A stretch of 64,000 nt of DNA from Gemmatimonadota bacterium (GTDB lineage Bacteria > Gemmatimonadota > Gemmatimonadetes > Longimicrobiales > Gaopeijiaceae), in contig PBPC01000057.1 in NCBI GenBank assembly GCA_002724575.1, forward strand, positions 1-64,000, given 5' to 3'. This document shows, one piece after another, positions 53,775 to 56,270 of the stretch; position 1 is the first letter of the stretch, and every line of letters begins with the position of its first letter. The position numbers and the translations under genes are program-made. Under the pieces are notes generated by a model, which saw only the letters and a list, made by a program, of their open reading frames with translations, had not been told where the DNA came from and did no database searches.

Positions 53775-56270
53775 GTGATTCTTGCACATCTCTCAGATCT
53801 GCACCTGGGCTTTCGGGCCTACGGGCGTATTGATCGCGGTGTGGATATACGCGAGCGAGATGTCTCCGTGGCATTTGAGCGTGCACTTCAGGCTATAATT
53901 CGAATAAATCCTGACATCGTGGTGGTTTCGGGTGATGTCTTTGATCGTCCAGATCCTCCTGCAAGTGCAGTGGTTGTGCTTGCGCGAGGTCTCGAACTAC
54001 TGCGTTCCTCACTTCCTGAGACACCAGTATTCATGATCGCTGGTCCTAGGGACACACCTAGGCAGCTTGGCAATCCCGGGGCTCTTGCCGTACTGGATAG
54101 TTTTCCGAATGTCGAGGCAGCCACGGATTTAACGCGCTCGATTATCATGGAGCGTCTCAAGCTTCATGCCTGCCTGGTGCCATTCCGGGCTACTGTTCGC
54201 CACCCCGGAGCCTTCCCGGAGCCCGACCCACGAATGAGATGGAATCTTTTGGTACTGCATGGAACTCTTGAAAGGTCCGGAGAGGCAGCAGTACCAGTGG
54301 TTCCCGAGGATTGGAGCTATATAGCCTTGGGAGGACGACACCGCACAGAACAGATAAGCTCAAATGTTCTTTGGGCAGGATCCCTGGAGCGTGTTGCACT
54401 TGATCCTTGGGAGGACGCTGGCGGAGAAAAGGGGTTCTTAACCGTGAACCTGGAGAGCGGAGAGCACCAATTCCACGCTATTCCATCGCGTCCGGTGGCT
54501 GCGTTGGCTCCCGTTAAGGTTATTGCTGGGGATCATAGTAAACTGCGTAGCCGAGTACGTGAGGTTGTCCAAGAGATCCCCGGAGGTATCAAGGGTAAGA
54601 TTGTGCGCCTGAGGCTTGAGGGCGCTTTCCCACAGGATCTCCTAGCCTTACAAGGTGAAGAGCTATCGGATCTGCGGACTTCCGCACTGCATTTGGCCAT
54701 TGAAGCTGGAAAAGAGCCGCGCCATTTCCCATTGGGCTGGTTATGGGAAGATGCGCCTACACTCCTTCGCGTTGCACTAGAAAAAGAACTTGAACGGGAC
54801 GGTCTTCTAGACGATGCAACCAAGGCAGTCATAGAGGAGTCACTGGATCTTGATGTCGTCGATGTACCAAAGGTCCAAGCGGTCGGAGGTATGGATGCAC
54901 TTGATGGTGATATTCCTGGAGTTGGCCGAGTGAGCGCTTCGATACCGGTTGGTTTGACAGCAGTGATCGGTGGTGATGGAAGGTCACGTAAGGCAGTTAA
55001 AGAGCTTTTGATTCAGGCCGGAGGAGGCTCTAGTAACAAGCCTCTGTCGCATTTTTGGGCTTGCACTGATGCAGGAACATTAGATGAGATGTTGTCGACT
55101 GCTTCGTTAGCGATAGCGTTTACCCGTGGGTTGTCCTTTCTAGATGCTGCTCTAAAGAGGCTAGGGTCAGGTGATAAATCTGGGACAGGTTTCAGATTGG
55201 GTGCGCCTGTATTAGAGAGTAATCTTCCAGGATCGACTTCCAGGGACCTTGAGGCCATTACCACAGAATTCCAATTAGCAGAAGAAGATTTCCGGTCACT
55301 TAGGTCAGAGGTGGTTGAGGCCGATGGAGATCTAGAGGCCTCGATGATGGATTGGCTCAGAGAGAGGCAGGACGCAGAGACAACCCTTAATGCCTACCGT
55401 GATCGAGCCCGGCAGCTTCGATCACGCTTACGGCAAATGGAGACGACTGGCCCTAACGCACCTTGTCCACTCTGCGGTCGTGTATTGCAAGGTCATTATG
55501 ATGAGGTCTTGAGGGAGCTAAATGATGAGTGGGAATCAGTGGTCCAAGACGGGATGTGGTGGCGAAGTAGGTGGGAACAATTAGAGCTCAAACCGCAGAA
55601 TCTCCAAGAGCGTGAAGAAAAGGCGCTGAAGCTACATGTCACCCTTGAGGCTCAATCAGAACGTATCGAACTCCTACGAGCTAGGGTTAGCAGCATGCGG
55701 GCAGGCGGTGCCCCAATAGAGAAGGAGGTTGCACGAGATGACCATCAGGGTCAGGTCATGGCAGCTCTCGTGCGGGTACGCATGGCTCGTGAAATTCGCG
55801 CTAGAGACATACTTCTGGATAGAGCTTCTCGTTTTGTCTGCAGGCTCACAGGTGGCCGAATTCTGGCAATCACTGTTCGCAGCGGAGGGGTGCATCTCGA
55901 AGGAGATTATGAGACTTTGCGTTCGGTATCAGAGGAAGATCTTTCTGCAGCAAAATTAGCCATACGCCTAGCTGCTGCATCTTTCATAGCTGCGGGTGAG
56001 GGTCTAGGCTCGCTCTTATTAGAGGAGCCATTTGATCGACTAGACCCCGAGGTCGGAATCCGCAGCCTATTGCTCATGAAAGAACTCGTAAGTGAGGTTC
56101 CTAGGATTATATTGGTGAGTCGAGGTACAACGGTTGGTGCACGCCCTGAACTGTTTGATTGCATCATGGAAATTCGAGAAGAAGGCTCGACTGCTGGTCC
56201 TGCGCTCCGTCCAACTACAGCGGGTCCAGGCAAGTTTATGTTGCAATCTTCAGTTACTCTGAAACACTGA
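53775..56270 (+). CDS. Fused SbcD/SbcC (Mre11-Rad50; YhaO-YhaN)-like protein with degenerate catalytic motifs
   Basis: N-terminal metallophosphoesterase (SDLHLG, VSGDVFDRP) but GPRD for GNHD and GGRH for GHxH; later GLTAVIGGDGRSRKA (degenerate P-loop), coiled coil with CPLC zinc-hook-like motif, VSEEDLSAAKLAIRLA, SLLLEEPFDRLDPE, IILVSRG. Confidence 0.75.
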   Translation: MILAHLSDLHLGFRAYGRIDRGVDIRERDVSVAFERALQAIIRINPDIVVVSGDVFDRPDPPASAVVVLARGLELLRSSLPETPVFMIAGPRDTPRQLGNPGALAVLDSFPNVEAATDLTRSIIMERLKLHACLVPFRATVRHPGAFPEPDPRMRWNLLVLHGTLERSGEAAVPVVPEDWSYIALGGRHRTEQISSNVLWAGSLERVALDPWEDAGGEKGFLTVNLESGEHQFHAIPSRPVAALAPVKVIAGDHSKLRSRVREVVQEIPGGIKGKIVRLRLEGAFPQDLLALQGEELSDLRTSALHLAIEAGKEPRHFPLGWLWEDAPTLLRVALEKELERDGLLDDATKAVIEESLDLDVVDVPKVQAVGGMDALDGDIPGVGRVSASIPVGLTAVIGGDGRSRKAVKELLIQAGGGSSNKPLSHFWACTDAGTLDEMLSTASLAIAFTRGLSFLDAALKRLGSGDKSGTGFRLGAPVLESNLPGSTSRDLEAITTEFQLAEEDFRSLRSEVVEADGDLEASMMDWLRERQDAETTLNAYRDRARQLRSRLRQMETTGPNAPCPLCGRVLQGHYDEVLRELNDEWESVVQDGMWWRSRWEQLELKPQNLQEREEKALKLHVTLEAQSERIELLRARVSSMRAGGAPIEKEVARDDHQGQVMAALVRVRMAREIRARDILLDRASRFVCRLTGGRILAITVRSGGVHLEGDYETLRSVSEEDLSAAKLAIRLAAASFIAAGEGLGSLLLEEPFDRLDPEVGIRSLLLMKELVSEVPRIILVSRGTTVGARPELFDCIMEIREEGSTAGPALRPTTAGPGKFMLQSSVTLKH

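Follow-up and report, generated by a model that had tools for sequence, protein, structure and literature searches.

A probable SbcCD-derived pseudoenzyme with a conserved zinc hook, a putative scaffold, in Gemmatimonadota

The gene studied here reads as a nuclease and an ATPase joined in one chain, with replacements in the motifs of both, and the question is what such a protein is kept for. It lies in a stretch of 64,000 nucleotides from a Gemmatimonadota bacterium, which we call the window (Table 1). An earlier note had described the 831-aa reading frame as a fusion of an Mre11-like and a short Rad50-like half with both centres eroded, and had proposed a catalytically reduced or repurposed protein under selection. 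We compared the gene across the window's family, f1, and took the canonical counterparts from the sister families f2, f3, f6, f7 and f9; the genomes compared are mostly drafts.

Table 1. The gene, its parts and its motifs in window coordinates, with examples of the membrane gene at related loci.
Feature	Position	Strand	Remark
Single-chain Mre11 (SbcD)-Rad50 (SbcC) pseudoenzyme	53775..56270	+	ORF of 831 aa, GTG start
Metallophosphoesterase (Mre11/SbcD nuclease) domain, residues 1-240	53775..54494	+	Foldseek to Mre11, TMt 0.6-0.73
GPRD replacing GNHD (Arg for the catalytic His, Pro for the metal-2 Asn)	54042..54053	+	
GGRH replacing GHxH (metal-2 His gone, metal-1 His retained)	54330..54341	+	
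Mre11 capping domain, two helices (324-341, 347-357) and low-confidence linker (361-365)	54495..54890	+	Predicted model
Rad50-like N-lobe, P-loop substituted by GLTAVIGGDGRSRKA from 54951; start of shortened coil	54891..55274	+	
Coiled coil with zinc hook	55275..55694	+	Better conserved in the family than the rest of the C half
Zinc-hook CPLC (CxxC)	55464..55475	+	CxxC in 71/71 family members
Rad50-like C-lobe; signature SVSEED, Walker B LLLEEP, switch His gone	55815..56204	+	
Membrane spermidine-synthase-like gene, examples among others	L055:9083-10513, L056:5247-6674, L062:8437-9825		

Both halves can be assigned. The N half matches Pfam Metallophos and NCBIfam Mre11 and finds Mre11 in the PDB with an E-value of 1e-13 in a sequence search, and the C half, a short Rad50/SbcC, finds PDB Rad50 with 5e-4. 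A profile of 20 relatives brings the Mre11 match to 2e-20 and the Rad50 match to 6e-9, E-values that come from a search with the family's own profile and are not independent evidence. An AlphaFold2 model of the whole chain on family sequences (pLDDT 84.8, pTM 0.81) leads Foldseek to Mre11, and the protein has the metallophosphoesterase plus capping fold of that enzyme. The C half modelled alone, on family sequences only, reaches a pLDDT of 85 and is predicted to form a Rad50 ABC head with a coiled coil; its Foldseek hits are Rad50 and SMC heads (Rad50 1f2u_D with a TMt of 0.70), and Rad50 3qkt matches with an E-value of 3.8e-8, in line with the Rad50 likeness on which the earlier note had built. 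The hook cysteines, C564 and C567, are found at the tip of the coil, between model helices 489-561 and 572-604, and the two helices that follow the capping domain may be the helix-loop-helix site to which Rad50 binds.

The motifs of the N half are SDLHLG (residues 7-12), GDVFD (53-57), AGPRD (89-93), VLHG (160-163) and GGRH (186-189), and those of the C half GLTAVIGGDGRSRKA from 393, CPLCGRVL (564-571), SVSEEDL from 717, LLLEEPFDRLD from 747 and VSRG (781-784). They read as first noted, with some coordinates to be corrected: the P-loop equivalent starts at 54951 and not at 54960, and CPLC at 55464. When the family profile is aligned to Mre11 of P. furiosus (1ii7), GNHD falls on GxRD and GHIH on GGxH. 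With the ligands divided between metal 1 and metal 2 as in the P. furiosus structure, the window protein retains the metal-1 ligands D8, H10, D54 and H189, but the Asn and His of metal 2 and the catalytic His are replaced (N91P, H187G and H92R), which leaves the set of seven metal ligands and one catalytic His of catalytic SbcD/Mre11 incomplete. Walker A, the ABC signature, the Walker B Asp and the switch His of catalytic SbcC/Rad50 are likewise absent at the aligned positions, and the C-lobe has SVSEED and LLLEEP where canonical SbcC has ISGGEED and LLILDE. What is shared with SbcCD/Mre11-Rad50 is both folds, the metal-1 ligands, the zinc hook, the order of sbcD and sbcC, the phylogeny and the upstream neighbour, whereas the single chain and the coil arms of about half the canonical length (165/150 against 375/296 residues) are further differences.

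Present in 104 of the 125 f1 genomes (E <= 1e-65), the gene is missing from some genera (about 21 of the 125 genomes) and is thus not indispensable; eight extra weak matches in f1 genomes resemble other metallophosphoesterases. The metal-1 ligands are retained in most of the 73 f1 sequences that were tabulated (D8 in 72, H10 in 71, D54 in 70 and H189 in 68). The catalytic His is an Arg in 70, the metal-2 Asn is retained in none, with position 91 varying among P/A/E/V/S, and the first His of GHxH (H187) is found in six, while 23 of 24 SbcD from the sister families keep all these residues. Two motifs that the earlier note had counted as intact are present in the window, but they say less than was thought: the His of VLHG (H162) is kept in only 36 of the 73 relatives, and GDVFD is not diagnostic, the vertical sister SbcD having GDxFH and the catalytic TIGR00619-type SbcD GDxFD. 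Walker A occurs in none of the 71 f1 C halves, against 22 of 22 canonical sister-family SbcC, and the hook CxxC in every one of the 71. Canonical motifs shifted to another place in the chain would have offered a different explanation, but none was found, and a search for the Walker A pattern gave nothing anywhere in the 71 C halves; a loose ABC-signature pattern gave 14 f1 matches off the aligned position, which we do not count as signatures. In some genera the C-lobe is nearly unrecognisable. The erosion of both catalytic centres, from which catalytic inactivity is read, is a state common to the whole family and not a local oddity.

A tree of the N half, built with the eight catalytic columns removed, unites the f1 sequences in one clade with a support of 100/100. 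The loss of the catalytic His requires one change on this tree and the fused state five. When paralogs are added, the f1 clade joins the SbcD of the sister families, and the TIGR00619-type SbcD and the YhaO-like genes of the same genomes fall outside that group. The coil flanking the hook (QDAxTxL..YRDR..CPTCGR..QDGxWW..QLxxKP) is common to f1 and the SbcC of f3, and from the tree, these common flanks and a common upstream gene, described below, we conclude that the line is vertical SbcCD and orthologous to the SbcCD of related families. The earlier choice between an SbcD-SbcC and a YhaO-YhaN type is thereby settled for the former. The B. subtilis type of YhaO-YhaN also pairs a metallophosphoesterase with an SMC-like partner, and the YhaO-like genes of the same genomes match the family profile weakly, but this identity was rejected on the tree, where they form a separate group.

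Where both halves are visible, 46 loci are fused and 23 have separate neighbours, one of the latter (G003) separated merely by a stretch of N. A complete dead fusion was also seen in family f4 (L103 of G232), closest to those of G010 and G137, on a contig of 3.8 kb which is probably mis-binned; otherwise it would be a transfer. The one exception among the sister-family SbcD, at L042 of the f3 genome G056, has AGDRD, with Arg for the catalytic His, and GHHP, with Pro for the last His, and sits beside an SbcC with an intact Walker A. It is possibly a halfway state or an independent loss, and the genome carries a second SbcD/SbcC-like pair at L080.

Fusions that place Mre11 ahead of Rad50 in a single chain have been described in Mimivirus R555 and its relatives (Yoshida et al. 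2011, PMC3175470). R555 retains the ATP-binding motifs and most of the nuclease residues; H173, H206 and H208 are named in that paper as nuclease residues, and fusions of this type occur sporadically and have been assigned to viruses and plasmids (PMC3175470). The family of the window has the same order of halves, but unlike them it is vertical and catalytically eroded. In view of the vertical, family-wide distribution we do not favour a viral or plasmid origin, and the absence of the ATPase motifs also distinguishes the family from these fusions; R555 itself is set apart here by motifs and distribution. The fusion as such is thus already known, but a family-wide double catalytic loss with the hook retained was not found in the open-licence papers searched, and among these we found none that joins SbcC, SbcD and Gemmatimonadota, or Mre11, Rad50 and "pseudoenzyme". 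The Lamassu LmuB and SMC-like defence proteins gave a weak coiled-coil match (E 0.0045) together with structural hits to Lamassu, and no Lamassu partner genes were seen adjacent to the window gene. A Lamassu-like defence role was rejected, as the coiled-coil match is weak and the sequence family is that of SbcC.

Within the genus of the window dN/dS is 0.15-0.18, by simple pairwise counts from four genomes. It is lowest at 0.08-0.10 for the nuclease domain and 0.07-0.14 for the C-lobe, and the neighbouring genes have 0.07-0.19. Between genera, in f1 and canonical sets that differ somewhat in divergence depth and for which the equally conserved nuclease domain (mean identity 0.51 in f1 against 0.53) is an internal yardstick, the mean identity is 0.26 against 0.71 for the N-lobe and 0.30 against 0.71 for the C-lobe, but 0.53 against 0.39 for the coil with its hook. 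The constraint is inverted relative to canonical SbcCD, down in the ATPase lobes and up in the hook coil. Some positions, H92R included, have moved from one fixed residue to another, which is unlike drift.

We hypothesize, with a probability of roughly 0.65, that the protein is an SbcCD-derived pseudoenzyme which functions as an ATP-independent zinc-hook scaffold or tether. The gene was inherited vertically from the sbcD-sbcC operon of the bacterial class, and early in f1 it lost the second metal site of the nuclease, the catalytic His and the entire site for binding and hydrolysis of ATP; sbcD and sbcC were later joined into one chain in many lineages. Selection retains the metallophosphoesterase fold, metal site 1 included, and the shortened zinc-hook coiled coil. 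A zinc ion held between two hooks would pair two chains, whose Mre11 halves would be binding platforms, possibly for DNA. The hooks of Rad50 are reported to form a stable module for dimerisation (PMC6969161). A comparison of net charge gave no signal of DNA binding, f1 and canonical proteins being equally acidic. The protein would presumably hold its ligand without ATPase or nuclease activity, although some phosphoesterase activity, residual or altered, may persist in view of the metal-1 site and the conserved metallophosphoesterase domain. The single loss on the tree, its spread through the family and the purifying selection support the earlier proposal of a reduced or repurposed protein, with DNA binding, zinc dimerisation and the lack of all activity as its putative parts.

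The neighbouring genes suggest what the protein might be coupled to. Canonical sbcD of f3 is preceded by a fused MFS/spermidine synthase (NF037959, 106-110 bits, cut-off 40). Homologues of this membrane spermidine-synthase-like gene were detected in f2 and f3, at 166-1091 nt upstream of sbcD. The f1 homologue has diverged alongside the dead gene (at most 21 bits to NF037959), and only its membrane half is left in G008, G011 and G033. Of 37 f1 loci, 29 show an overlap of the two genes by exactly 4 nt, and in none of the 37 is the gap wider than 8 nt. As overlapping antisense ORFs had fused some of the neighbour clusters in these high-GC genomes, only neighbours confirmed by direct BLAST and HMM were used. 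The overlap suggests a functional coupling in f1, and together with the homologous gene in the sister families it makes it conceivable that the dead SbcCD forms a complex with the co-translated membrane protein, for instance anchoring DNA or a partner to the membrane. We regard this as possible but doubtful, since so tight an overlap may mean shared transcription only, and since the window's genus has lost the membrane gene, none of its five genomes having it, although the dead gene remains under selection there and thus can outlive its partner. In the window, one flank of the gene is taken up by a divergent periplasmic-binding/FecCD/ABC importer and rsgA, the other by RidA-type, DAO, ornithine-cyclodeaminase-type and TMEM260-like genes. 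A membrane-coupled complex could also extend the scaffold instead of competing with it. It is possible, though not probable, that the family represents a zinc-hook complex of a new class, a derivative of Mre11-Rad50 that needs no ATP and in which hook dimerisation alone would tether DNA or another ligand; in most of the family it would act with a membrane protein to which it is coupled in translation.

The state of the N half raises another thought, that enzymatic activity persists and the protein is a one-metal phosphoesterase for DNA or some other phosphodiester, with Arg 92 in the place of the catalytic His. The metal-1 ligands are retained in 68-72 of the 73 sequences, R92 is fixed in 70 and not drifting, and the domain is as conserved as that of canonical SbcD. 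We nevertheless find this unlikely, because characterised Mre11 nucleases use two metals and the catalytic His, and in f1 the metal-2 ligands are gone, position 91 is free and H162 remains in only half of the sequences.

A role beside other end-processing machinery has also to be weighed. No other SbcCD was found in the window's genome, which is about 89% complete, and two long AddAB-like ORFs lie on one of its contigs. The nuclease domain of the AddAB/RecB type (PDDEXK_1) is present in all 36 sampled f1 genomes and in the window's own; no match was found in six of 12 f3 genomes, and most f3 genomes keep a live SbcCD. A trade-off between the two systems, f3 against f1, is possible. Three f1 genomes (G028, G030 and G031) have an independent canonical SbcCD in addition to the dead gene, and two (G014 and G017) canonical SbcCD only. 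The protein could then be a regulator or decoy subunit of AddAB-like enzymes or of canonical SbcCD, an idea that is hard to maintain when most carriers, including the window's genome, are without a canonical SbcCD partner and no link between the gene and addAB was seen. That the gene is decaying and on its way to be lost, as the missing catalytic motifs and the barely recognisable C-lobe of some genera could indicate, is already refuted by a dN/dS that is not that of a pseudogene, by intact frames over some 35 genera, by a hook coil better conserved than in working SbcC and by the fixed switch H92R.

Mre11-Rad50 is among the most conserved machines of DNA repair, and nuclease, ATPase and tethering by the hook normally go together in it. 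A lineage that has dropped the nuclease and the ATPase and keeps the hook under selection would have separated tethering from catalysis, and the dead SbcCD of this family may thus be a natural test of what the hook does alone.
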